Assembly: GCF_036346295.1 (NCBI RefSeq)
Contig: NZ_CP107819.1
Span: forward strand, 3,968,001-4,032,000
DNA from: Streptomyces sp. NBC_00536
GTDB taxonomy: Bacteria; Actinomycetota; Actinomycetes; Streptomycetales; Streptomycetaceae
Direction of reading: 5' to 3'
DNA length: 64,000 nt
The translations under genes were made by a program, and so were the position numbers. A model generated the notes under the pieces. It was not told the DNA's origin. It searched no databases and saw nothing but the letters and a program-made list of their open reading frames with translations. Shown one piece after another: positions 14,199 to 27,606 of this stretch; the stretch's first letter is position 1; each line of letters begins with the position of its first letter.

Positions 14199-15422
14199 TC
14201 AGGGCTCTCGGGGGCTGCTCAGCAGGGCTTCGAAGCCCGCCGTCAGGTCCTTCTTCAGGTCGTCCAGGCTCTCGAAGCCGACGTGGACCCGGACCAGGGG
14301 CCCGCGTCCCGCCCACGTGCCCGGCAGGCGGTGGGAGACCGGGTCGGCCGGCACGATCAGGCTCTCGTAGCCGCCGTAGCTGTGGCCGAGGCCGAAGACC
14401 CGCAGTCGGCCGAGCATCGCGTCGACGGCCGGTTTGCCGAAGCCCGGCTCCAGTTCCACCCCGAAGAGCCCCGCCGCGCCGGTGAAGTCGCGGCGCCACA
14501 GGTCGTGGCCGGGATCCCCGGGCAGCCCCGGGTTCAGGACGGCCACCACGCCCTCCTGGCCCGCGGTCCAGCGGGCCAGCTCCAGCCCCTGCTCCTGGTG
14601 CCGGCCCAGCCGTACACCCAGGGTGCGCAGCCCGCGCAGGCCCAGGTAGACGTCGTCGGCGCCCGCGCACTGGCCGAGCCGGATGGCCGCGCCCCGGATG
14701 ACCGGGTAGCTCTCCTCGGTGCAGACGATCGCGCCGAGGAGGCTGTCCGCGTGCCCCGTCAGGTACTTGGTCGCGGAGTGCACCACCGCGTCCACACCCG
14801 CACCCAGCGCCAGCGGTCGGCAGAAGGCGGGCGTGGCCCAGGTGTTGTCCGCGATGGTGACCACCCCGCGGGCCCGGCAGACGGCGGTGACCGCCGGGAT
14901 GTCCTGCACCTCGAAGGTGGTGGAGCCCGGGGACTCCAGGTAGAGCAGCCGGGTCCGCGGGCGGATCAGCGCCTCGATCGCGGCGCCGCCCGCGTCCGGA
15001 GGGTAGTACTCGGTCTCCACGCCCAGCGCGGCGAGCGAGTCGCAGAACTTCCGGGTCGGCAGGTAGACCGAGTCGCTGACGAGGATGTGGTCTCCGGCCC
15101 GGACGTACGCGAGGATCGCCGTGGTGATCGCCGAGAGTCCGGAGCAGGTCGCCACCGCCGCGTGGCCGCCCTCCAGTTCGGTCAGCGCCTCCTCGAAGGC
15201 GCGGCCGGTGGGGGTGCCGAAGCGCCCGTAGACCGGGGTGCCGCGCTTGAGCGGGTCCGCCTGGGAGGCGTCCATCTCGGCGACGTCCTGGTAGAGGGCG
15301 GTGGAGGCGCGGTACACGGGCGGGTTGACGTAGCCGCTCTGCCGGCGCGGATCGGACCCGGCGTGCACGAGCCGGGTCTCCCGCGAGGAAGAGGTGGAGG
15401 TGGAGGTGGAGGGATCGTTCAC
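14199..15422 (-). CDS. PLP-dependent C-S lyase, cystathionine beta-lyase (MetC)-like
   Basis: 407 residues of the Cys/Met-metabolism PLP family. The N-terminal SGYVNPPVYRAST is the form typical of cystathionine beta-lyases. The PLP lysine is Lys219 in HSATKYLTGHAD, and the pyridine-binding aspartate is Asp192 in IADNTWATP. It cleaves or rearranges C-S bonds of cysteine-type amino acids with PLP. Its GTG overlaps the TGA of the MFS gene (GTGA, 15419-15422). With the sulfurtransferase upstream it probably supplies or processes sulfur in the operon product rather than serving general methionine synthesis. It is the last gene of the operon. Confidence 0.88.
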   Translation of the reverse strand: MNDPSTSTSTSSSRETRLVHAGSDPRRQSGYVNPPVYRASTALYQDVAEMDASQADPLKRGTPVYGRFGTPTGRAFEEALTELEGGHAAVATCSGLSAITTAILAYVRAGDHILVSDSVYLPTRKFCDSLAALGVETEYYPPDAGGAAIEALIRPRTRLLYLESPGSTTFEVQDIPAVTAVCRARGVVTIADNTWATPAFCRPLALGAGVDAVVHSATKYLTGHADSLLGAIVCTEESYPVIRGAAIRLGQCAGADDVYLGLRGLRTLGVRLGRHQEQGLELARWTAGQEGVVAVLNPGLPGDPGHDLWRRDFTGAAGLFGVELEPGFGKPAVDAMLGRLRVFGLGHSYGGYESLIVPADPVSHRLPGTWAGRGPLVRVHVGFESLDDLKKDLTAGFEALLSSPREP

Positions 15423-16699
15423 CGGGTCACCGCCGCTTCGGCCAGGGGCGGTTCGGGGACGGCGGGCCGTCGGCGGCCGCCCAGCAGCAGGGCGAGCAGC
15501 GCCGCGCCCGCACACTGCGCCGCCACCACCAGCCAGAACGTGCCCAGGTCGCCCGCAGCCTCGTAGTGGGCGAAGACGAACCCTCCGACGACGCCGGCGA
15601 GGAGTCCGCCGATGCCGGCGGTCAGCCGCTGGACGCCGAAGGCGAAGGCGGGGTTTCCCGGCACGCGGTCGACGAGTTCCAGGTCGCAGCGCAGGAAGAG
15701 GAAGATCTCGCCGAGGGTGAAGAGGGCGGTGCCGGCCAGCAGGGCCGGGGTGCTGCCGAGGGACATGGCTCCCATGCCCAGCGCCATCAGGGTGAACGAG
15801 CCGACCACCAGCAGGCGGTAGTCGGCGCGCGCGATGCGGTCGGCGAGGGCCGGCTGGAGCAGCACCACCATGGCGCAGTTGAGCAGCATGACCCAGCCCA
15901 GGACCTGGATGTGGGACACCCCGGCCGCGTACAGGCCCATGAAACTCTGGAAGAAGAAGTAGAGGTAGAAGGCGAGGGCGGTGAAGAGGACCGGGCGCAG
16001 CGCACCGCGCAGCGCCGCCCAGTTCCCGCTGACCGGTGCGGCCCCGGCCACCGCCACCGCCGGAGCCGGGTCCGGGGCCGCGATCGGCCGGGGCGCGACC
16101 GGCTTGAGGGCGGCCTGGTGGGCCGCGGTGATCAGGGCGAAGAGCCCGGCGAGGCCGATGAGCAGCAGCACGGGGTCGGCGTCGATCAGCAGTGCGGCGA
16201 GCAACGGCCCCAGCCCCATGCCCGCGTTGAGGGCGGCGCTGCTCACCCCGAGGAAGAGCGGGCGCAGTTCGTCGGAGACGCTGGTGACGATGTACGCCTT
16301 GTTCGCCGGGAGGTACAGCGCCGGACCGCCCGCGACGAGGACGACGGCCGGGTACGCGACCCAGGGCGCCTTGACCGCCAGCCCGAGCAGGACCAGGCCG
16401 GCCGTGCGCAGGGTGAGCGCGAGCACCATGGTCCGCTTGAGCCCGAGCCGGTCCACGACCGCGCCGCCCAGGATGCTCCCGCCGAACTGGATGAAGGTGG
16501 CCACGGCCACCAGCACCCCGGCCACCCGGACGTCGAGGCCGACGGCCTCGACCATGAGCACGCCGATGAACGGGGTGACCATGTAGCTGCCGAAGGCGAC
16601 GACGAAGGACAGGCCGATCAGGGCCTTGAGGCCGGCGGGCAGGCCGGTGAAGGTCCGCCACTTCGCGGTGAGCCCGCCGCCGCGGCGCCCCCCGGTCAC
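15419..16699 (-). CDS. MFS transporter
   Basis: 426 residues with about 12 membrane helices and the major facilitator loop GGAVVDRLGLKR after helix 2. The start is the GTG at 16699, which overlaps the sulfurtransferase stop (GTGA). Located inside a biosynthetic operon, it is the likely exporter or self-resistance pump for the product. Substrate unknown. Confidence 0.88.
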   Translation of the reverse strand: MTGGRRGGGLTAKWRTFTGLPAGLKALIGLSFVVAFGSYMVTPFIGVLMVEAVGLDVRVAGVLVAVATFIQFGGSILGGAVVDRLGLKRTMVLALTLRTAGLVLLGLAVKAPWVAYPAVVLVAGGPALYLPANKAYIVTSVSDELRPLFLGVSSAALNAGMGLGPLLAALLIDADPVLLLIGLAGLFALITAAHQAALKPVAPRPIAAPDPAPAVAVAGAAPVSGNWAALRGALRPVLFTALAFYLYFFFQSFMGLYAAGVSHIQVLGWVMLLNCAMVVLLQPALADRIARADYRLLVVGSFTLMALGMGAMSLGSTPALLAGTALFTLGEIFLFLRCDLELVDRVPGNPAFAFGVQRLTAGIGGLLAGVVGGFVFAHYEAAGDLGTFWLVVAAQCAGAALLALLLGGRRRPAVPEPPLAEAAVTR

Positions 16700-17595
16700 G
16701 GTGAGCCGCTCTCGCCGGTGGCCTCGCCGAGAGCCTCGCCGCCCGTGGCCACCGGGCGGTCGGAAGGCAGGCCCCACTCGCTCCACGAGCCGTCGTACAC
16801 GGCGAGGTCGCGGTAGCCGGCCAGGGTGGCCCCGAGCGCGAGGACGCAGGCGGTGACCCCGGAACCGCAGGAGAAGTACAGCCGCTCACGGCCCCCGGCC
16901 GCCGCCTCGAACTCCCGTCGCAGCTCGTCCGCGGGCCGCATCGCGCCGCCGTCCCGCTGGAGCTCCCCGAAGGGCAGGCTGGCGGAACCCGGCATGTGGC
17001 CGCCGCGCAGCCCCGGGCGCGGTTCGGGCGCGGTACCGGCGTACCGCTCGCGGGTGCGTGCGTCGAGGACGGCGGCGGCCGGGTCGGCGAGGGCCGCGGT
17101 GACGGCGTCGGCGTCCACGATCAGGCCGGGCCGGGGCCGGGCGGTGAAGGTGCCGCGCGGGCCGTCGTACCGGGCGGGCTCCCGCTCGACCGGGCGGCCG
17201 GCCGCGGTCCAGGCGGGCAGGCCGCCGTCGAGGACGGCGACCCGGTCGAAGCCCATGGCGCGCAGCATCCACCAGGCGCGGGCGCTGGAGTAGATGCCCT
17301 GTGCGTCGTAGACCACGACCGTGTCGGTGTCGTTCACGCCGAGCGCGCGCAGGGCCTCCTCGAGCTGCGGGACCCCGGGCATGGTGTGCGGGGCGGCGGC
17401 GGTGTGGTCGGACAGCGCCCCGTCGAGGTCGAAGGGCCGGGCCCCGGGGATGCGCGCGGCCGCGCCCCGGTGGGCGCCGACGGAGGCGTCGAAGAGGACC
17501 ACGCCCTCCCCGCGCCGTGCGGCCAGCCAGTCGGCCCCGACGAGCGGGCCGGTGAGCCCGTCGGAAGCGGGGCCGGGGCGTGCCGTCGCGCTCAT
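16696..17595 (-). CDS. Mercaptopyruvate/thiosulfate sulfurtransferase (two rhodanese domains)
   Basis: 299 residues made of two rhodanese domains. The second holds the active-site loop CGSGVTA, with the catalytic cysteine at residue 243. CG[ST]GVTA is typical of the 3-mercaptopyruvate group. The enzyme carries sulfur as a cysteine persulfide and hands it to an acceptor. Its ATG overlaps the upstream ATP-grasp stop and its own stop overlaps the MFS start, so it is embedded in a tightly coupled operon. This suggests sulfur transfer to the pathway intermediate. Confidence 0.88.
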   Translation of the reverse strand: MSATARPGPASDGLTGPLVGADWLAARRGEGVVLFDASVGAHRGAAARIPGARPFDLDGALSDHTAAAPHTMPGVPQLEEALRALGVNDTDTVVVYDAQGIYSSARAWWMLRAMGFDRVAVLDGGLPAWTAAGRPVEREPARYDGPRGTFTARPRPGLIVDADAVTAALADPAAAVLDARTRERYAGTAPEPRPGLRGGHMPGSASLPFGELQRDGGAMRPADELRREFEAAAGGRERLYFSCGSGVTACVLALGATLAGYRDLAVYDGSWSEWGLPSDRPVATGGEALGEATGESGSP

Positions 17596-18833
17596 GCGGT
17601 GCCTCCGGAAACGATTCCGCCCGAGCCGGCGGCGGGCCGCCACACGGTGTTGTCGGCGAACCAGCCCGCCACGTGTTCGAGATTCGCGGCCACGTCCTCC
17701 TCCGTGTCCCCGTCGACCACGTAGCCGGCCAGGAACAGTCCGGACTTGACCCCGCCGTGGAACTCCTGGCCGACCGCCCCGGTCAGCATCACCTCGCGCA
17801 CGCAGCCGGGTTGCCCGGCCTCGGTCCCGGCCTCCGGCAGCTTCTCCAGTACCCCGTTCTGCGGCGGGATGTTCAGGGCCCCGGCGGGCCGGTAGATGGG
17901 CGCGCCGAGGGTCGAGGGCAGGCCGCACTCCGCGTACAGCCACTCCTTGTCCAGGTCGATCCCGAACGCGTGCCGGACCATCGCGCTGATCATGCCGCCG
18001 CCGGTGCGGCTGGCGATCTCGCAGAAGACCAGCCGGTCGTCGGGCGTGATCCAGAACTCGGCGTGGAAAGCGGTCTGCGCAGGGGTCGGCAGCTCGGCCA
18101 GGACCGCCCGCACCGCCTTGACCAGCCGGTCGTACGCCGGGTCCTGCGGGGTGAGCGGGAGGTTGGCCACCCAGTCGTTGTCCCGGAAGGACAGGCAGTC
18201 GTTGACGTAGCGGAAGGGGTGGACGAAGACCACCTCGCCGCCCGCCACCAGCCCGTCCACGTGGTACATCTGGCCGGGCACGAAGGCCTCGATCTCGCTG
18301 ATCCCCCGCCACGGGCTGGCCAGGTACGCGTCCAGCTCCGCCTCGTCGCGGATGATCGCCGCGCCCAGCGAACCCGACTCGGACACCGGTTTGATCACGA
18401 CCGGGTAGCCGTGCTCGGTGACGAAGCCGAGGGCCGTGTAGGCCGAGTCGATGCGCCGGTAGGCGGGCACGTCGACGGGTCCGCCCGCGAGGTGGTCCTT
18501 CATGACCACCTTGTCGCGGAAGGCGAGCGCGCTCGCGGTGTGCTGGCCCGGCAGGCCGAGCAGCTCCCGCAGTTGGGCGGCCCGTACGACGTCGGCCTCG
18601 GCTCGGGCGAAGACCGCCTCGACCGCGAACTCGCGGGCCAGGCGCAGGGCCGTCTTCTCGACCAGCTGGTTGGTGTCGTAGGCGTCGAAGGCGTGTACGT
18701 GCGGGAGATGGGAATAGCCCGCCGCGTACTCGGTCGCGGTCACGATGACCGGGACGATCCCCGAGCCGGCCAGCCACTGGTCGTACGGGGTCTTGGCATG
18801 GGGCGTCTTGGCGAAGACGAGGATGTGGCGCAT
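17592..18833 (-). CDS. ATP-grasp ligase 1
   Basis: 413 residues (MRHILVFAKTPHAKTPYDQW). The ATP-grasp fold is recognisable in FRDKVVMKDHLAG, the YPVVIKPVSESGSLGA lysine/glycine loop and the metal-binding FCEIASRTGGGM. This is the carboxylate-amine ligase subclass often used in peptide-like natural products: it activates a carboxylate as acyl phosphate and joins it to an amine or other nucleophile. A GAGAGAGGAAG ribosome site precedes it, inside a threefold 11-bp repeat (18847-18879). It is coupled to the sulfurtransferase by ATGA. Confidence 0.85.
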   Translation of the reverse strand: MRHILVFAKTPHAKTPYDQWLAGSGIVPVIVTATEYAAGYSHLPHVHAFDAYDTNQLVEKTALRLAREFAVEAVFARAEADVVRAAQLRELLGLPGQHTASALAFRDKVVMKDHLAGGPVDVPAYRRIDSAYTALGFVTEHGYPVVIKPVSESGSLGAAIIRDEAELDAYLASPWRGISEIEAFVPGQMYHVDGLVAGGEVVFVHPFRYVNDCLSFRDNDWVANLPLTPQDPAYDRLVKAVRAVLAELPTPAQTAFHAEFWITPDDRLVFCEIASRTGGGMISAMVRHAFGIDLDKEWLYAECGLPSTLGAPIYRPAGALNIPPQNGVLEKLPEAGTEAGQPGCVREVMLTGAVGQEFHGGVKSGLFLAGYVVDGDTEEDVAANLEHVAGWFADNTVWRPAAGSGGIVSGGTA

Positions 18834-18846
18834 CGCGGCGGTCTTC

Positions 18847-18879
18847 CTCTCTCGGGTCTCTCTCGGGTCTCTCTCGGGT
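18847..18879. repeat. Three tandem 11-bp repeats carrying the ribosome site
   Basis: CTCTCTCGGGT is repeated three times without interruption. On the coding minus strand it reads ACCCGAGAGAG, so each copy is Shine-Dalgarno-like. The array spans the gap between the radical SAM stop and the ATP-grasp start. Confidence 0.85.
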
Positions 18880-20132
18880 CAGTTCTGCGAGTCGACGAGG
18901 AGCGGCAGCCGGCGCCGCTCGGGGACCCGGGAGATCAGGCCGAGTTCCTCGGACAGCTCGGTGGCGAAGCAGCCGTCCTTGTACGTGCCGGAGAGCCGCT
19001 TGGCGGTGAACGCCTCGATCTCGTCGTGGTCGAACTCCACGTCGTACGTGGTGGCGTCGCCCGCCTCGCCGGTGGTGACCGTGCGGACCAGGATCCCCAG
19101 GTGCGGCTCGAAGGTGTTGACGCAGCCGACGACGTCGCCGATCTTCTCGCGGCGGCCTTCGGGGCCGTCGGAGAGGACCTCCTCCTGCGCGGGGATGGCG
19201 GCGAACAGCTGACGGCCGGCCCGGCACCAGCCGACGTGGCTCGGGAAGCCCATGGCCTTGATGCCGAAGGTGCCGAAGTCCTCGCTGACGCCGAGCTGGA
19301 AGCCGAGCGGGACCGTCTCGTGGACCCACTTGAAGTCGCGGTAGGCCTGCTCGATCTCCTCGCGGGAGAGGCGCAGTTCGGGGTGGCGGCCGCCGTGGTC
19401 GGTGAAGTTGTTGAACCGTACGGTGGCCACGCCCAGGTTGTTGAAGTAGTGGGCGTAGCGCTCCAGGGAGGTGCGGCCGTGGTTGTGGCTGCCGATGGTG
19501 ACGCCGATGTTGACCCGGAGGGCGTCCTCGGGGGCGATGCCCTTGTTGTACTCGGCGATGCGGCGCAGCACCTCCTCGGTCTCCGCGCCGGAGAAGACGC
19601 CCTTGATGGGGTACGTCTTGTGGTCGGTGACCTTGAGGTCCTCGTCGATCACGCCGTGGTAGGTGATGGAGATGGTGCCGTAGCCGTTCTTGACGGCCAG
19701 GTCGAGGAGCTCGGTCCAGTTGTCGGCGAGCAGCGGGCGGCCGCTGGTCCAGGCGTCGCCCTTCTCCATCGTCTCGGTGGGCTTGTGGTCGGACTCCTGC
19801 CGGAACTCACGGTTGTTGGCCGGTCCGTAGATCCTCATGAACTCGCCGTCGTAGGCGAAGCTGTCCACGTAGCGCGGGTAGACGTGGTAGCCGTGCGACT
19901 GGAGGCCCTCCAGGATGCGGGGGCCCTCCTCCATGGCGAAGGACTTGTCGTAGACCTTCTCGTAGTTGACGAACCAACAGTGCGTGCACTTCTGCCCGCA
20001 GGTGTTCTTGCCGACCTTGGTGTCGAGGTCGAGGTAGATGTGGATGTCCTCGCGCTTGATGTCCTTGAAGGGCATCGAGAACGGGGCATCGCCGTGGAAA
20101 TCGTAGGAAATAGGATCGTTCTGGACAGACAT
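18879..20132 (-). CDS. Radical SAM enzyme
   Basis: 417 residues. The CxxxCxxC motif (Cys45, Cys49, Cys52, in CGQKCTHC) binds the 4Fe-4S cluster that cleaves S-adenosylmethionine to a 5'-deoxyadenosyl radical. The barrel continues through AYDGEFMRIYGPANN, ISITYHGVIDEDL and TVRFNNFTDHGGRHP. Three further cysteines (GWCRAG, VVGCVNTF, DGCFATE) could hold an auxiliary cluster. GGGGGATAC precedes the ATG at 20132. I do not recognise a characterised subfamily. By position it modifies the substrate of two ATP-grasp ligases, possibly forming a C-S or C-C bond. Confidence 0.85.
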   Translation of the reverse strand: MSVQNDPISYDFHGDAPFSMPFKDIKREDIHIYLDLDTKVGKNTCGQKCTHCWFVNYEKVYDKSFAMEEGPRILEGLQSHGYHVYPRYVDSFAYDGEFMRIYGPANNREFRQESDHKPTETMEKGDAWTSGRPLLADNWTELLDLAVKNGYGTISITYHGVIDEDLKVTDHKTYPIKGVFSGAETEEVLRRIAEYNKGIAPEDALRVNIGVTIGSHNHGRTSLERYAHYFNNLGVATVRFNNFTDHGGRHPELRLSREEIEQAYRDFKWVHETVPLGFQLGVSEDFGTFGIKAMGFPSHVGWCRAGRQLFAAIPAQEEVLSDGPEGRREKIGDVVGCVNTFEPHLGILVRTVTTGEAGDATTYDVEFDHDEIEAFTAKRLSGTYKDGCFATELSEELGLISRVPERRRLPLLVDSQN

Positions 20133-20246
20133 GTATCCCCCGAGTGGTGGTGTCGTGGTGCGGCGGTGTGGTGGTGCGGTCAAGGAAAGATGAGGGGCGC
20201 CGGCCGGCTGGGGTCCGGCGCGTGGATCGAAACGGTCAGGGCGCGG

Positions 20247-21398
20247 TCAGGGCGCGGTGGTGACCGCTGGTACGGCGATCAGCTCCGCGACGGCGGCCGC
20301 GCAGGCCTCGGTGTCGGCGGCGGTCAGGACGGCCATGCCGAGCCGGTCCGTGGAGGACCGCAGCGGGCGGACCTCGTGCCCGGGGAGAACCGGGAGGTCC
20401 CAGGCATGGATGTGGCCGTGGGCGAGGGCGGGCGGCGGCGCGACGGCCGTCACGCGCCCCGGCTTCGCGGTGAGGAAGACGGTGGCGGCAGCGGCCGCCG
20501 TGGCGGGGTCGCGCCGGACCCCGGCTCCCACGGCCCAGCCGAGGGCGGCACGCCGCCATTCGACTCCCGTGGTGAGGCGGACCAGGTCGGCGATGCCGTC
20601 GCCGCCGAGCCGGGTGTGGGTCTCGATGACGACGACCTTGTCGCCGTCCACCATGACCTCGGTGTGGCTGGGTCCGTCGGTCAGACCGATGGCGTCGAGC
20701 AGCTCGCCGACCGCGTGGGCGACCAGCCGCTGCCGGCGCGCGTCCAGGGACGGCGGCGGCATCATGTGGCTGACCTCGATGAAGCCGTCCGTCGTGCCCT
20801 TCTCGGCGATACCCATGACGGTGTGCCGGCCGCCCGCCGAGAGCGCCTCGACGCTGAACTCGCGGCCTTCGGCGAACTGTTCGAGGAGGGTCGCGGCCGT
20901 GCGGCGGTCCGCGGGGAGGTCGTCGATGTCCTCGACCAGGGCGATGGAGGTGCTTCCGAACCCGTCGACCGGCTTGGCCACCGCCCGCCCGTGGGCGCCG
21001 AACAGGCGTGCCACGGCCTCCGGGTCATCGCCCGCCGCGAACGCCGGGTTCAGGTGCGGGGCCTCGCGCTCCAGGATCCGCCGCATCGCCAGCTTGTCGC
21101 GGGTGGCCCGTACGACGGCCGGGTCGACGCCGGCGACGCCGAGCCGGCGGGCTGCCAGTGCCGCCGGCTCCAGGCCGAATTCGGTGAGGGAGACGACGGC
21201 GGCGGGTGCCAGCGGCCGCAGGACCGCATCGGTGAAGGCCAGGAAGGCGGGCAGGTCGAGGAAGTCGGCGGTCAGGACCCGGGCGTCGGGGTCGAGGGCG
21301 GGCGCACCGGGCAACTGCACGTGAACCAGCTCACCGGGCAGCGACGCCGCCTCCCGGGCCACGGTCGGATTGGCACCGACGATCACAAGAACGGTCAC
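20247..21398 (-). CDS. ATP-grasp ligase 2
   Basis: 383 residues from a GTG (VTVLVIVGANPTVAREA). It has an N-terminal preATP-grasp Rossmann-like part and an ATP-grasp core with RATRDKLAMRRIL, VAKPVDGFGSTSIALV, EQFAEGREFSVEAL and the metal ligands VVIETHTRLGGDGI. This fits a dapdiamide/biotin-carboxylase-like amino acid ligase. It is the first gene of the minus-strand operon, 114 bp ahead of the radical SAM gene. A TTGACA promoter lies ~115 bp upstream. It is distinct in sequence from ATP-grasp ligase 1, so two successive couplings are plausible. Confidence 0.85.
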   Translation of the reverse strand: MTVLVIVGANPTVAREAASLPGELVHVQLPGAPALDPDARVLTADFLDLPAFLAFTDAVLRPLAPAAVVSLTEFGLEPAALAARRLGVAGVDPAVVRATRDKLAMRRILEREAPHLNPAFAAGDDPEAVARLFGAHGRAVAKPVDGFGSTSIALVEDIDDLPADRRTAATLLEQFAEGREFSVEALSAGGRHTVMGIAEKGTTDGFIEVSHMMPPPSLDARRQRLVAHAVGELLDAIGLTDGPSHTEVMVDGDKVVVIETHTRLGGDGIADLVRLTTGVEWRRAALGWAVGAGVRRDPATAAAAATVFLTAKPGRVTAVAPPPALAHGHIHAWDLPVLPGHEVRPLRSSTDRLGMAVLTAADTEACAAAVAELIAVPAVTTAP

Positions 21399-21817: not shown

Positions 21818-22171
21818 TCAGTAGTACTGGCACAGGCAGAACTCGTGCTCTTCCGGGTCCTCCATCACCACCACCACGCCCTCGGCGTACTCGTGCCGTT
21901 CGCCGGTGAACCGGCCGCCGAGATCCATGACCTGGGCCATGCCCTGGGCGATGTCGTCGACCACGACATCCAGGTGCACGCGCGCCTTGCCGTGCTTCGG
22001 CTCGGCAACGGGCTGGAAGACGAGCCGGGGTTGTGCGTCGTCCGGGTGGCCCAGATAGACCCAGCCGGGTTGGGACGGCCCCTTCGGGCGGTCGAGGAGG
22101 GCGCTCCAGAAGGCCGCCACCCGTTCCACGTCGATGCAGTCGATGGTCACTCCGGACCAGCGGTTCGCCAT
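21818..22171 (-). CDS. VOC-family (glyoxalase-like) protein
   Basis: 117 residues from the ATG at 22171 (MANRWSGVTIDCIDVERVAA). Two beta-alpha-beta-beta-beta units are visible, with ARVHLDVVVDD and MEDPEEHEFCLCQ as the metal-side strands. VOC proteins include dioxygenases, lyases and antibiotic-binding proteins, and the substrate cannot be told. It stands alone, transcribed in the same direction as, but ~280 bp away from, the sulfur-metabolite operon promoter. Confidence 0.85.
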   Translation of the reverse strand: MANRWSGVTIDCIDVERVAAFWSALLDRPKGPSQPGWVYLGHPDDAQPRLVFQPVAEPKHGKARVHLDVVVDDIAQGMAQVMDLGGRFTGERHEYAEGVVVVMEDPEEHEFCLCQYY

Positions 22172-22378
22172 GCTGTCAGCACTCCTCACGTTGTCGGACG
22201 GAATGTCCGGCTCTCGCGGATCCGTTGACCAGCGAGCTGCCAGGTGCTCACACCCCTCATGCCCTGACCTGCCGTTCTCCCGTTCAGCGTTTGTCTACCG
22301 GCTCGCGTCAAGGTGACCATGCAGGGCGCCCGCGTAGGTGTGCGGGTGCCGGATCAGGCGCGAGAAAGGTGCACGGGG

Positions 22379-22906
22379 ATGGCAGCAGCGGTGTCGAAGG
22401 CGAAGATCAAGGTGGCTCGGCGGGTGGCCGGGGTACTGGCGGCGGGGGTGGTGGCGTTCACCGGGACGCTGGTGGGCGCGGGCAGCGCGCAGGCCGCGTA
22501 CGACTCGGGGACCCGCACGATGTGGAACGACGAGCCGCTGTACAAGGGCTGGCACGTCGACAACATCGACACGCGGCTGATCATGCAGGACGACGGCAAC
22601 CTGGTCCTCTACCGCGGGTTCAGCAATCCCGCGACGCAGAAAGCGACGTGGGCGTCCAACACCGCCGGCTGCGGCGAGAAGGCGGTCATGCAGACCGACG
22701 GGAACCTGGTCGTCTACGGCCAGGGCGGACGGGTCTGCTATGCCCTCAACGAGTTCAAGGGCTCGTACGCGAACGCCTGCCTCACGGTGTTTTCGAACGG
22801 ATTCAGCGTCTACTACACCAACCTGTCGTGCCCGGAGGCCGCCCCCACCGCCACCGCCGACCACGGCGTGATCATCAAGATAACCCGCAGGTCGGACGCC
22901 TACTGA
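22379..22906 (+). CDS. Secreted bulb-type mannose-binding lectin protein
   Basis: 175 residues with a signal peptide (KIKVARRVAGVLAAGVVAFTG, cleavage near SAQA-AYDSG). A B-lectin domain follows, containing two QxDGNxVxY sugar-binding motifs, QDDGNLVLYR and QTDGNLVVYG. Four cysteines suggest extracellular disulfides. GAAAGG precedes the ATG. It is likely a secreted carbohydrate-binding protein acting on the cell surface or on competitors. Its last 7 bases overlap the convergent SARP gene. Confidence 0.85.
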   Translation: MAAAVSKAKIKVARRVAGVLAAGVVAFTGTLVGAGSAQAAYDSGTRTMWNDEPLYKGWHVDNIDTRLIMQDDGNLVLYRGFSNPATQKATWASNTAGCGEKAVMQTDGNLVVYGQGGRVCYALNEFKGSYANACLTVFSNGFSVYYTNLSCPEAAPTATADHGVIIKITRRSDAY

Positions 22907-24399
22907 TCGCGTCCCGTTCGCGCCACCAGTCCCGCCACCGACCAGTGCGGGCGCGCCGCGAGGCGGGTCGCCGCCGCGCGCAGGTGCAGGGGCAGGTGGC
23001 CGCAGAGCGCGGCCAGTTCGGCCACCGGGCCGGGTTCCTCGCGGACCCGGTCCGCGCCCGCGACCCGGGCGAGCAGCTCGTGCGCGTCGTCCGGCTCCAA
23101 GGGGCCGATACGGATGTGCGCGGCGCCCGTCGGCAGGGCGTCCGGGGCCGCCCCGGTCAGTACCGCCGCGCAGCCGGGGGTGGCCGGCAGCAGCGGCTCC
23201 GGGCGGGCCACCCCGTCCAGCAGGACCAGCACGCGCCGCCCCGCGAGGGCGGCGCGGTAACGCCGGGACAGTTCGCCCGTGTCCGCGGTGTCGGGCGGGC
23301 GTTCGCCCAGGGCCCGCAGGAAGGCGGCGAGTACGGCGCGCGGCTCGGCCGCCGCGCCGTCCCGCGGGCCGCGCGCGCTCACGTACGGGCTCACGTACAG
23401 CTGGCCGTCCGGGTAGGCGTCCTGGACCGCGTGGGCCAGGTGCACGGCGAACGCCGAGGTGCCGCTGCCGCGGGGGCCCGACAGGGCCAGGACCGGGGAG
23501 GTGTCCGGCTGCCGGAGCAGCCCTTCGGCCTCCCGCAGCTCGGCCCCCCGGCCCACCCAGTCCGGAATGTCCGGTGGCAGCTGGCCGGGGCGGGCCGGGC
23601 GGCGGGGCGGCGCCGGGGCCGGGGCGGCCGTCAGCGCGGGATCGCCGTCCCGGATGCGGGTGTGCAGCTCGATCATCGCGGGGGACGGTTCCAGCCCCAG
23701 TTCGCGGTCGAGCCGTTCCCTCAGCGCGTCGAAGGCCGCGAGCGCCTCGTCCGTCCGCCCGCCGCGGTGCAGGGCCAGCACGTACAGCCGCTGCACCTCC
23801 TCGTCGTGCGGGTTCTCCGCTGCCAGGGCCCCGAGTTCGGGCAGCAGTTCCGCGTGCCGCCCCAGGGTGAGTTCGATGTCGAGCAGCGTCTTCGTGACCG
23901 CGTGCCGTCCCGCCGCGAGCCGGTGGCGGGTGCGCTCGGCGAGTACGCCCGGCACCCCGTCCAGCGCCGGTCCGCGCCACCGCCCGAGGGCTTCGCGGAG
24001 CAGGGCGCGGGCCCGTACCGGATCGTCGTGGCGCAGCGCGGCCGACTCCAGCACCGCGGCGTCGTAGTGGAAGAGGTCGACGGCGCGGCGGTCCACGTTC
24101 AGCCGGTAGCCGCCCGATTCGGCGACCAGCACCTCACCGCCCGGGTCCCCGGGCGCGGCCATGGCCCGGCGCAGCCGGTGGGTGTGGGTGCTCAGCTGGC
24201 CCACGGGGTTCTTCGGCCACTGGGCGTCGTCCTCGCCCCAGAGGCCGTCGATCAGCTGCCCGAGCGGGACGAGCTGCCCGGGGGCGAGCAGGAGCGCGGC
24301 GAGCACGGCGCGCTGCTGCGGCCGTCCGAGATCGGTCTCGTGGCCGTCCCGCCAGGCGCGCAGTGGACCGAGCACGCAGAATTCGAGCCCCATACCCAT
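22900..24399 (-). CDS. SARP-family regulator with truncated NB-ARC domain
   Basis: 499 residues. It has an OmpR-like DNA-binding domain (LEFCVLGPLRAWRDGHETDL), then the bacterial transcriptional activator (BTAD) helical domain to about residue 250. A short NTPase part follows. The P-loop reads GPRGSGTSAF, so the Walker A lysine is replaced by threonine, and the protein stops soon after the NB-ARC core without the winged helix and TPRs of AfsR. It probably binds direct-repeat operators and activates transcription, but nucleotide hydrolysis is doubtful. The start may be 24399 or 24393. It diverges from a full-length SARP at 24646. Confidence 0.8.
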   Translation of the reverse strand: MGMGLEFCVLGPLRAWRDGHETDLGRPQQRAVLAALLLAPGQLVPLGQLIDGLWGEDDAQWPKNPVGQLSTHTHRLRRAMAAPGDPGGEVLVAESGGYRLNVDRRAVDLFHYDAAVLESAALRHDDPVRARALLREALGRWRGPALDGVPGVLAERTRHRLAAGRHAVTKTLLDIELTLGRHAELLPELGALAAENPHDEEVQRLYVLALHRGGRTDEALAAFDALRERLDRELGLEPSPAMIELHTRIRDGDPALTAAPAPAPPRRPARPGQLPPDIPDWVGRGAELREAEGLLRQPDTSPVLALSGPRGSGTSAFAVHLAHAVQDAYPDGQLYVSPYVSARGPRDGAAAEPRAVLAAFLRALGERPPDTADTGELSRRYRAALAGRRVLVLLDGVARPEPLLPATPGCAAVLTGAAPDALPTGAAHIRIGPLEPDDAHELLARVAGADRVREEPGPVAELAALCGHLPLHLRAAATRLAARPHWSVAGLVARTGRDQ

Positions 24400-24458
24400 G
24401 CCGCCCCCGCATCCATGAGCCCCGTGCGCCATCGGCGCGCCGACGGTCCGCGACCCCT

Positions 24459-24501
24459 GCGCCATCCGTGCGCCATCCGTGCACAATTCGCGACAGATAA
24501 T
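24459..24501 (+). promoter_or_regulatory. 11-bp direct repeats plus -10 (SARP-type operator)
   Basis: GCGCCATCCGT occurs twice back to back (24459-24469, 24470-24480), followed by the weaker copy GCACAATTCGC (24481-24491). A further GTGCGCCATC lies at 24424-24433. GATAAT (24496-24501) follows as a -10. Direct repeats one helical turn apart just upstream of a -10 are the known SARP operator layout. The promoter faces the SARP gene at 24646. Confidence 0.55.
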
Positions 24502-24645
24502 ACGGGGACGGGGAGGGAGCGCCGCCTTCGCCGCGCAGTGCCGCAGCGCCGTCCATGGACGGCAGGGCCCACGGGATGGGGATCCAGGGGCCTACGGGAG
24601 TGCGTGGCGGACGGGGCGCGGAGCACGAGGACTGGGGGAAGGACC

Positions 24646-27606
24646 ATGGGGGATTTCGCACTGCGATTCAGCCTGCTCGGGCCGTTGCGGGCCTGGTACG
24701 GGGACGACGAGGTCGAGCTGGGGCGGCCCCAGCAGCGGGCCGTGCTGGCCGCGCTGCTGACGGCCGGGGGGCGTACGGTCGCCACCCCGGTCCTCGCGGA
24801 CGCGGTGTGGGGCGGCGCTCCGCCCTCCGAGCCGCGCAAGGCCGTACAGCTGCACGTGTCCCGGCTGCGGGCCGCCTTCAAGGCGTGTGCCGGGGCGGAG
24901 CGTGCGGGCGAGCTGCTGGTCCGCGTGGGCGACGGATACGCGCTCGCGGCGCCGGACGCCGAAGTGGACGTGGTGGTCTGGGACCGGCTGCTCGCCGAGG
25001 CCGGGCGGCTGCGCGACCAGGGCGCACCGGCCGACGCGGTACGGGAGGTGGTGCTGCGGGCGCACCGGCTGTGGGACGGGGAGCCGCTGGCCGGCCTCGC
25101 CGGGCCGCACGCGGAATCGCTGCGGTCCCGGGTGCGGGAGCAGTGGCTCGGCGCGAAGGAGCTCCAGCTGGAGATGGACGTGGAGCTGGGCGACCGTACG
25201 GACCTGACGGCGGAGGCCGCCTCGCTCGTACTGGAGCACCCGGGACGGCCCCGGCTCACCGCCGTCCTCATGCGGGCCCTGTACCAGGCGGGGCGCAAGG
25301 CCGAAGCCCTCGCGGTGTACGAGGAGGCCCGCCGGACTCTCCCGCCGGACGCTCGGGAGGACGATGCCCCGGCAGTGGGCGCGCGGCGCGCTGACGGGCC
25401 CGCCGCGCTGCACCTGCGGATCCTGCGCGAGGACCCCGCCCTGCTGCCCGTCTCCGCCGCCCGCGCCCAGGCCCCCGCCTGGCAGCCACCGCACCAGCTC
25501 CCCGCGGGTCTCGCCGACTTCACCGGCCGGGAGTCCGCCGTCGAGACGCTGGTGGACCGTCTCGTGGGCGGCGTCGGACGCGCGGTGGTCGTCTCCGCGC
25601 TGGACGGCATGGGCGGCGTCGGCAAGACGACGCTGGCGGTGCACGTGGCCCGCCGGGTCCACGAGCGGTTCCCGGACGGCCAGCTCTTCGCGGACCTGCG
25701 CGGCGCCGACCGGACGCCCCTGGACCCCGGCCCGGCGCTCGCCGGGTTCCTGGGCGCGCTGGGGGTCGCCCCGGCCGAGATCCCGCTGGACCTGGGGGAA
25801 CGTACCGCCCTGTACCGCTCCGCGCTCGCGGGCCGCAAAGTGCTCGTCGTCCTCGACAACGCTGTCGGCCCGGAGCAGGTGAAACCCCTGCTGCCGGGCT
25901 CCCCCGGGTGCGCCGTCCTCATCACCAGCCGCACCCGCCTCACCGGTCTCTCCGGGGCCCACCAGATGCGCCTGGAGACCCTCCCCCCCGACGAGGCGCT
26001 GGAGCTGTTCACCCGGATCACCGGAGCCTCGCGGGTGGCCGCCGAACCCGGCCTCGCCGAGGAGATCGTGGTGGCCTGCGGGCTGCTGCCGCTCGCCGTC
26101 AGGATCGTCGCCTCCCGGCTCGCCGCGGACCCCGCGCTCACCCTGGCGGCGCTCGCCGGGGAGCTGCGCGACCAGCGGCGGCTGACCGCCCTGGACGACG
26201 GCAAGCGCACGGTGGAGGCGACCTTCGCCCTCTCCTACCACCGGCTCGGCCCCGAACTCGCCCGCGCCTTCCGGCTGATGGCCCTGCCGGACGCCCCGGA
26301 CATCTCGCTGCCCTGCGCCGCCGCGCTGCTCGGCCGGTCCGAGGCCGAGGCCGACGAGCTGCTCGAAGCCCTCGTCGACCTGAACCTGCTGCACTCCCCG
26401 CAGTTCGAGCGCTACGGATTCCACGACCTGGTCCGCGACTACGCCCGCGACCGGCTGGCCGACGAGGAACCCGCCGCGCGGCGCACGGCGGCCGCCGACC
26501 GGCTGGTCGACTTCTGTCTGGCCACGGCGCGCAACGCCGACCTCGCCGCCCGCTCCGTCGACCCGGTCGAGCAGAGCCTCCTCGACGCACGGGTCACCTC
26601 CGCGGGCCGCCCCGTGGCCGATTCGGCCCAGGCGGTGGGCTGGATGCGCGAGCAGGCCGGTGTGCACGCCGCGGCCATCCACCTGAGCTGCGCCGATCCG
26701 GCGCTGCCGCTGGACCGCGCGGCCGAACTCGCCGACAAGATGGGCTCGGTGCTCTTCGAGCGGGCACAGACGGCGATCATCGCCGACCTGGCCGAACTCA
26801 TCGCCGACGAGGCGGCGGCCCGGGGTGACGACGGCCCCGAGGCCCTCGCCCGGCACGTGCGGGGCATCATGCTCTGGCACGTCAACCGGTACGAGGAGTC
26901 CGAGCGGGAGATCGGCCGGGCGGTCGCCCTGTGCGAGGGCGTCCACGACGGTCCGGTCGTCCGCGTACGGGCCAAGGCCCTCCTCGCCCTGGGCAGCAAC
27001 CTCCGGGTCCGCGGCCGGTACGCCGAGGCCGCCTCGTACGCGGGCAGCGCGGCCGCGCTCTTCCGCCGGGTGGGAGCCGAGCGCGCGGAGGGCAGCGCGC
27101 TGGGGGAGTTCGCGTTCTGCTGCGCCCAGACGGGGCGCGTGGAGGAGGGCCGGGCCGCGGCCGAGCGCGCCGCCCTCCTGATGGACGGGTCGGGCCCGGT
27201 GTCGGCCGCGACCGGCCGCTACTACCTGGCCCGGGTGCTGCGGCTGTGCGGCGATCCGGAGGCGGCCCTGGTCCACGCGGTGCGCGCCCGGGAGGAGTTC
27301 GCGGACCTCCAGGTGACGGTGTTCGAGGCGGCGGCGGGCGACCTCGTGGCCCGTATCCACACCGAGGCGGGCCGCTGGCTGCTCGCCACCGAGGCCGCCG
27401 AGGCGGTGCTGCCGCTCGCCCGGCGCACCAGCAGGGCGCTGGAGGCCGCGCTCCTGCGCACGCTCGGGACCGTGCACACCGGTCTCGGCAGGCCGCGGCA
27501 GGCGCGCGCCTGCCTGGAGGACGCGCTGGCCCTCTACGAGCGGCTGGGTCTCGGCGACGACGCCGGGGAGACGCGGGCCCTGCTGGACGCGCTTCCCCGG
27601 CCGTAG
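24646..27606 (+). CDS. AfsR-like SARP regulator (BTAD, NB-ARC, TPR)
   Basis: 986 residues, AfsR-sized. Order: winged-helix DNA-binding domain (FALRFSLLGPLRAWYGDDEV), BTAD to ~255, NB-ARC NTPase with intact P-loop GMGGVGKTTLA and Walker B KVLVVLDNAVG, a winged helix (YGFHDLVRDYARDRL), and C-terminal TPR repeats. It is an ATP-regulated pathway-type activator. GGGGGAAGGA precedes its ATG. Shares a 246-bp promoter region with the divergent truncated SARP; the first ~20 residues of the two are alike (LGPLRAW, LGRPQQRAVLAALL), suggesting an old duplication. Possible targets are its neighbours, the lectin, CAP and CHAP genes. Confidence 0.88.
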   Translation: MGDFALRFSLLGPLRAWYGDDEVELGRPQQRAVLAALLTAGGRTVATPVLADAVWGGAPPSEPRKAVQLHVSRLRAAFKACAGAERAGELLVRVGDGYALAAPDAEVDVVVWDRLLAEAGRLRDQGAPADAVREVVLRAHRLWDGEPLAGLAGPHAESLRSRVREQWLGAKELQLEMDVELGDRTDLTAEAASLVLEHPGRPRLTAVLMRALYQAGRKAEALAVYEEARRTLPPDAREDDAPAVGARRADGPAALHLRILREDPALLPVSAARAQAPAWQPPHQLPAGLADFTGRESAVETLVDRLVGGVGRAVVVSALDGMGGVGKTTLAVHVARRVHERFPDGQLFADLRGADRTPLDPGPALAGFLGALGVAPAEIPLDLGERTALYRSALAGRKVLVVLDNAVGPEQVKPLLPGSPGCAVLITSRTRLTGLSGAHQMRLETLPPDEALELFTRITGASRVAAEPGLAEEIVVACGLLPLAVRIVASRLAADPALTLAALAGELRDQRRLTALDDGKRTVEATFALSYHRLGPELARAFRLMALPDAPDISLPCAAALLGRSEAEADELLEALVDLNLLHSPQFERYGFHDLVRDYARDRLADEEPAARRTAAADRLVDFCLATARNADLAARSVDPVEQSLLDARVTSAGRPVADSAQAVGWMREQAGVHAAAIHLSCADPALPLDRAAELADKMGSVLFERAQTAIIADLAELIADEAAARGDDGPEALARHVRGIMLWHVNRYEESEREIGRAVALCEGVHDGPVVRVRAKALLALGSNLRVRGRYAEAASYAGSAAALFRRVGAERAEGSALGEFAFCCAQTGRVEEGRAAAERAALLMDGSGPVSAATGRYYLARVLRLCGDPEAALVHAVRAREEFADLQVTVFEAAAGDLVARIHTEAGRWLLATEAAEAVLPLARRTSRALEAALLRTLGTVHTGLGRPRQARACLEDALALYERLGLGDDAGETRALLDALPRP

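Follow-up and report, generated by a model that had tools for sequence, protein, structure and literature searches.

The window examined here is a stretch of 64,000 nucleotides from the 9.15 Mb genome of Streptomyces sp. NBC_00536 (contig NZ_CP107819.1, positions 3,968,001 to 4,032,000; G000:C1:3968001-4032000), and the element of interest within it is a cassette of six minus-strand genes which fills positions 14199-21398 of the window exactly. The operon begins with a gene for an ATP-grasp ligase (ATP-grasp 2, 20247-21398, GTG start, 383 amino acids (aa)), followed by genes for a radical S-adenosylmethionine (SAM) enzyme (18879-20132, ATG start, 417 aa), another ATP-grasp ligase (ATP-grasp 1, 17592-18833, 413 aa), a two-domain sulfurtransferase of the 3-mercaptopyruvate type (16696-17595, 299 aa), a presumed exporter of the major facilitator superfamily (MFS) (15419-16699, GTG start, 426 aa), and a MetC-like pyridoxal phosphate (PLP) enzyme of the C-S beta-lyase class (14199-15422, GTG start, 407 aa).

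An initial annotation of the window had placed six minus-strand genes in this interval, four of them coupled through ATGA or GTGA overlaps, with a CxxxCxxC motif at residues 45-52 of the radical SAM protein. Our check of the open reading frame (ORF) coordinates agreed with it in each respect: three overlaps (ATGA, GTGA and GTGA) link four genes, the two other junctions being gaps of 45 and 114 bases, and the motif is formed by C45, C49 and C52 of the window protein. Its family assignments were recovered as well, through PF13535 for both ATP-grasp proteins, LAL_C2 for ATP-grasp 2, PF00581 for the sulfurtransferase, PF07690 for the transporter, and PF01053 and TIGR01324 for the PLP enzyme.

Conservation of the cassette in Streptomycetaceae

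To define the unit, 19 Streptomycetaceae loci were compared, comprising the window, the 12 loci obtained from a scan of species-representative genomes, every one of which was in Streptomyces, and 6 further loci. The results showed that the radical SAM, ATP-grasp 1, MFS and MetC-like genes were each present in 19 of 19 loci, and the sulfurtransferase and ATP-grasp 2 in 18 of 19 each, the former being absent from S. flaveolus (L016) and the latter from S. morookaense (L019). No close copy of the absent gene was found elsewhere in either genome, the best match being 43% identical for the sulfurtransferase in S. flaveolus (G1005) and 33% identical for ATP-grasp 2 in S. morookaense (G219). Because the full set of six genes is present in 17 of the 19 loci, the cassette is not a chance arrangement. 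When the flanks of the 19 loci were compared (2.6-10 kb per side, ORFs of at least 70 aa), each ORF was shared with at most 3 of the other 18 loci, and the unit therefore ends at six genes; some flanking genes are common to small groups of loci, one of them formed by the window, L012 and L052.

Across 11 genomes, the distances of the six cassette genes correlated with one another at r values of 0.84-0.97, in comparison to 0.72-0.86 against rpoB. Judged from these distances, much of the agreement between the cassette genes is plain vertical descent, and as they also track rpoB, we make no claim of horizontal transfer within Streptomyces. Whole-genome searches found the radical SAM gene in 9 of 392 genomes of the genus, 8 of 394 genomes of the family (2 of its 17 genera) and 2 of 396 genomes of the phylum, with the three samples overlapping and each count taking in the source genome. 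The cassette occurs as one unit in a minority of Streptomyces, and altered forms of it are present in unrelated bacteria.

Near the cassette lie two divergent BTAD-domain (SARP/AfsR-like) regulators, at 22900-24486 (-) and in the frame 22033-27606 (+), the latter also having NB-ARC and TPR matches; the flank comparison of the 19 loci places both outside the conserved unit. A short secreted-looking protein at 22313-22906 (+) has, by our own reading, DGNLV repeats as in bulb-type lectins, and no Pfam match at E 0.001.

The radical SAM enzyme and its partners

The radical SAM enzyme contains six cysteines in all, each invariant in 63 of 63 aligned rows, of which three form the CxxxCxxC motif and the other three (303, 337 and 388) lie in a SPASM/twitch-like C-terminal part, where structural matches extend to residue 398. 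The window protein gave no Pfam match at E 0.1 and no NCBIfam match at 0.01, and it was not among the 23 matches of PF04055 in the genome; PF04055 matched 14 of the 63 aligned family members weakly (E <=0.1, best 3.3e-4). With a structure model of the protein (predicted local distance difference test (pLDDT) 92.3, predicted template modelling score (pTM) 0.90), Foldseek returned nine known radical SAM structures in the first 11 rows, and radical SAM enzymes occupied the leading rows of VIA-align, in agreement with a partial TIM-barrel fold of the protein. Lipoyl synthase (5exi) stood at Foldseek rank 6 and was not in the best 50 VIA-align rows, which does not prove a different fold. On the basis of the motif, the weak PF04055 matches in relatives and the predicted fold, we assign the protein to the radical SAM enzymes, as a member of a divergent family. 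It is encoded by a single copy in the source genome, and GGGGG stands upstream of its ATG.

Among the best structural matches were the SPASM/twitch thioether synthases SkfB and CteB, which likewise combine CxxxCxxC with C-terminal cysteines. These enzymes act on ribosomal precursor peptides, whereas no conserved precursor was seen for the cassette, and the profile of the cassette radical SAM family finds no SkfB/CteB-type thioether synthase by sequence. A ribosomally synthesized and post-translationally modified peptide is not favoured as the product, since the gap between the ATP-grasp 2 and radical SAM genes holds no conserved small ORF and there is no widely shared seventh gene, the flank comparison having covered ORFs of at least 70 aa and shorter ones having been sought only in that gap.

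The PLP enzyme scored above the TIGR01324 cut-off (438.2 bits in comparison to 365.9), which places it in the MetC class of cystathionine beta-lyases, and its closest solved structures, with 8duy, 21kb and 1cl1 among the six matched, are E. coli-type lyases together with 21kb, deposited as a cysteine-S-conjugate beta-lyase. The MetC lysine motif SATKYLTGH is identical in 19 of 19 cassette copies. Two other long PF01053 proteins of the host are 34% and 31% identical to the cassette MetC, and they exceed the NCBIfam cut-offs for cystathionine gamma-synthase (671 in comparison to 513 bits) and cystathionine gamma-lyase (555 in comparison to 440). The sulfurtransferase matches PF00581 and falls under the cut-off of the SseA equivalog NF008557 (201.3 in comparison to 250 bits; E. 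coli SseA scores 579.9). Its closest solved structure, 1urh, has the same CGSGVTA loop in the alignment, and this loop is identical in 18 of 18 cassette sulfurtransferases. A second sulfurtransferase of the host, 72% identical over 289 residues, is encoded 1.5 Mb from the cassette (G000:C1:5527734-5528453) and is solitary, with no other cassette gene in the 19.5 kb around it.

Both ATP-grasp proteins are of the L-amino-acid-ligase type by domain score, ATP-grasp 1 matching PF13535 with 29.1 bits (cut-off 27) and ATP-grasp 2 with 47.2 bits, the latter also matching LAL_C2 (PF18603) with 44.1 bits (cut-off 29.4), and they are predicted to join free amino acids. The closest solved structures are the L-amino acid ligase 4wd3 for ATP-grasp 1 and the L-amino acid ligase BL00235 (3vot) for ATP-grasp 2. 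The ligases BacD of bacilysin and DdaF of dapdiamide are ATP-grasps of the same type and gave weak NCBIfam and Protein Data Bank matches, but the scores were far under the equivalog cut-offs; we know of no radical SAM, MetC or sulfurtransferase gene in these two pathways. The MFS protein matches PF07690 with 88.5 bits. In S. misionensis (L017:13349-15057) the MFS gene matches in two pieces about 500 bases apart, which may reflect a disruption or an assembly fault.

Relatives outside Streptomyces

The radical SAM family comprises 154 proteins at E <=0.001, and the 120 listed include relatives in Kitasatospora, Corallococcus, Teredinibacter, Pantoea ananatis, Serratia plymuthica and Duganella. 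Co-occurrence was estimated indirectly, by pairing contigs of equal length among the best 120 of 276 ATP-grasp 1 matches and the best 120 of 7487 MetC matches. Among the matches listed, 118 distinct radical SAM contig sizes were found, of which 39 recurred with ATP-grasp 1, 22 with MetC and 18 with both, and the trio reached metagenomic contigs. Within the same matches, radical SAM proteins 57-69% identical to that of the window were paired with ATP-grasp 1 in 23 of 48 cases and with MetC in 8 of 48, in comparison to 0 of 33 with either for those 48-56% identical, against a background in which 1 of 52 MetC rows at <=56% identity had the same length as a radical SAM contig. For a Corallococcus contig of 865,490 bases, the radical SAM protein (66%) and ATP-grasp 1 (61%) are both named there.

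Two of 72,556 plasmids searched carry the radical SAM gene. On pR33-1 of Providencia sp. R33, a radical SAM gene (51% identical), one ATP-grasp gene, an MFS gene and a gene for a MalY/PatB protein are consecutive, and the last of these stands where MetC would and exceeds the cut-off of TIGR04350, the PatB family of C-S lyases. The gene tables, which are incomplete, show neither a second ATP-grasp gene nor any other sulfur gene in the 12 kb that flank the opposite end across the circular start, and the radical SAM, ATP-grasp and MFS stretch had no DNA match in the E. coli genomes searched. On the conjugative plasmid pWP8-W19-CRE-02_1 of Enterobacter cloacae, a broken radical SAM gene of which only the C-terminal end remains (AP022275.1, L010:12004-12405), close to a transposase gene, is followed by a sulfurtransferase and an MFS gene. 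The remnant shares 83% identity with a Pantoea protein and 85% with a Serratia protein, and the MFS protein is 39% identical to that of Providencia. The Enterobacter sulfurtransferase is 43% identical to that of the window and only 39% identical to E. coli SseA, and for the latter reason is not an ordinary enterobacterial gene; the sulfurtransferase tree, with long branches, 3 of 18 inner branches well supported and one row (L065) translated from the wrong strand, serves here only for pairwise identities and does not settle whether the Enterobacter and Streptomyces genes have a common cassette ancestry. No match was found among viral contigs.

Few as these two plasmid loci are, they show gene orders and a lyase class unlike those of the cassette, and sulfur enzymes are still there. 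A C-S beta-lyase and/or a sulfurtransferase recurs with the radical SAM gene, and two lyase classes fill one slot.

A possible route to a sulfur-bearing peptide

Taken together, we consider it fairly probable (roughly 0.65) that the product of the cassette is a small peptide-like metabolite which is exported and whose synthesis includes a sulfur step. The initial annotation had proposed a small exported sulfur-bearing product of this kind, which is a reasonable proposal. Its expectation that the sulfur genes would accompany the radical SAM gene in other genomes agrees with the presence of MetC in all 19 loci and of the sulfurtransferase in 18, and with the two plasmid relatives, where a PatB lyase or a sulfurtransferase lies beside that gene. 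The order of steps that it had suggested, in which persulfide supplies the sulfur and the PLP enzyme frees the thiol, is one of several readings, and S. flaveolus retains the cassette with no sulfurtransferase.

Starting from what was observed directly (the gene set, its conservation, the family memberships, the six invariant cysteines and the exchange of lyase class), a tentative mechanism of radical SAM C-S bonding, C-S cleavage, ATP-grasp peptide formation and MFS export can be put forward, in which we infer every chemical step by analogy and which may well be wrong. The product would be a sulfur-bearing di- or tripeptide built without a nonribosomal peptide synthetase (NRPS) or the ribosome. 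The C-terminal part of the radical SAM enzyme would hold an auxiliary iron-sulfur cluster on three cysteines, and for this reason probably one open iron site; the enzyme would bind cysteine through the sulfur atom, which it would then attach to an unactivated carbon, either in an amino acid or in a dipeptide made by an ATP-grasp enzyme. The PLP C-S beta-lyase (MetC here, PatB in Providencia) would release pyruvate and ammonia from the cysteine moiety, thereby removing its carbons and leaving the thiol, the ATP-grasp ligases would cap the thio-amino acid by building it into a peptide, the MFS protein would export it, and the sulfurtransferase would handle persulfide or excess sulfur. Since one species does without ATP-grasp 2, and the Providencia cluster has one annotated ATP-grasp, the core is likely to be a dipeptide that can optionally be extended. 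The weak point of this scheme is the sulfurtransferase, for which it offers only a supporting role.

In ergothioneine biosynthesis, as an excerpt of PMC4493562 describes it, the sulfur of cysteine is moved by a C-S bond former and then a PLP C-S lyase. Like the ergothioneine and ovothiol systems (EgtB or OvoA plus a lyase), the cassette would pair a metal-dependent C-S bond former with a PLP C-S lyase; it differs in that a radical SAM enzyme would take the place of the bond former and in having ATP-grasp ligases and an MFS protein as well, and no EgtB/OvoA-type domain was found in the six genes at E 0.001. A cysteine-binding radical SAM enzyme with an exchangeable C-S lyase would thus be a radical version of ergothioneine sulfur transfer. 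The broader proposal, that a new radical SAM family bonds cysteine sulfur to unactivated C-H positions and, with an exchangeable lyase, gives NRPS- and ribosome-free thiol peptides in Streptomyces, myxobacteria and Gammaproteobacteria, has in our estimate about one chance in four, and is offered as speculation.

The exchange of MetC for PatB would also fit the bypass of an inhibited reaction, and it is conceivable, if rather doubtful, that the lyase and the sulfurtransferase serve self-protection, the peptide carrying a toxic amino acid (e.g., a beta-substituted alanine, or one that inhibits transsulfuration enzymes) and the two enzymes being insensitive stand-ins or degrading it in the producer. 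ATP-grasp pathways of the cassette's type are known for antimetabolite peptides, and the weak matches of the BacD and DdaF models point in the same direction; however, the two other full-length PF01053 proteins of the host are the gamma-synthase and the gamma-lyase, so that no MetC-class target copy is evident, transsulfuration enzymes being possible targets. We consider it quite improbable that the role of the PLP enzyme and the sulfurtransferase is confined to making or recycling a building block, such as a racemised or sulfur-free amino acid, for a product without sulfur. MetC enzymes have a racemase side activity, and the PLP enzyme scored 227.6 bits with the model of an archaeal alanine/glutamate racemase of the same superfamily, but this is far under the cut-off of 629, and the recurrence of sulfur enzymes of different families with the radical SAM gene also speaks against such a role.

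The loss of either sulfur enzyme, i.e. the S. flaveolus cassette without a sulfurtransferase, the Providencia locus with a lyase only, and the Enterobacter remnant with only a sulfurtransferase annotated beside it, would be explained if both were suppliers of sulfane sulfur that rebuild an auxiliary cluster which the radical SAM enzyme sacrifices for sulfur insertion, as lipoyl and biotin synthases do. Thiocysteine would arise from cystine by the action of MetC or PatB, and persulfide from 3-mercaptopyruvate by that of the sulfurtransferase. The Foldseek match to lipoyl synthase is consistent with this explanation, as is an excerpt of PMC4493562 on the radical insertion of sulfur for which the cluster is the proposed donor, and yet we regard it as unlikely.

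As the initial annotation had stated, the gene set belongs to no characterised pathway that we found: searches of the open-access literature aimed at the gene set found no such cluster, most subscription papers being outside this scope, and the Pantoea antibiotic clusters in an excerpt of PMC7744662 included no matching gene set, with the PNP-2 and PNP-3 clusters outside the comparison. The cassette probably builds and exports a small peptide containing sulfur, and we found no description of its route in that literature. If the proposed mechanism is true, it would be a compact pathway which sets sulfur on an unactivated carbon within a small molecule, bond former and bond cutter being adjacent, and it would be chemically useful and bring to light a new class of natural products among small peptides. 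Leaving the mechanism aside, the cassette still marks an uncharacterised radical SAM family of 154 proteins with recurring genetic partners, and this recurring gene set makes the substrate of the radical SAM enzyme directly testable.

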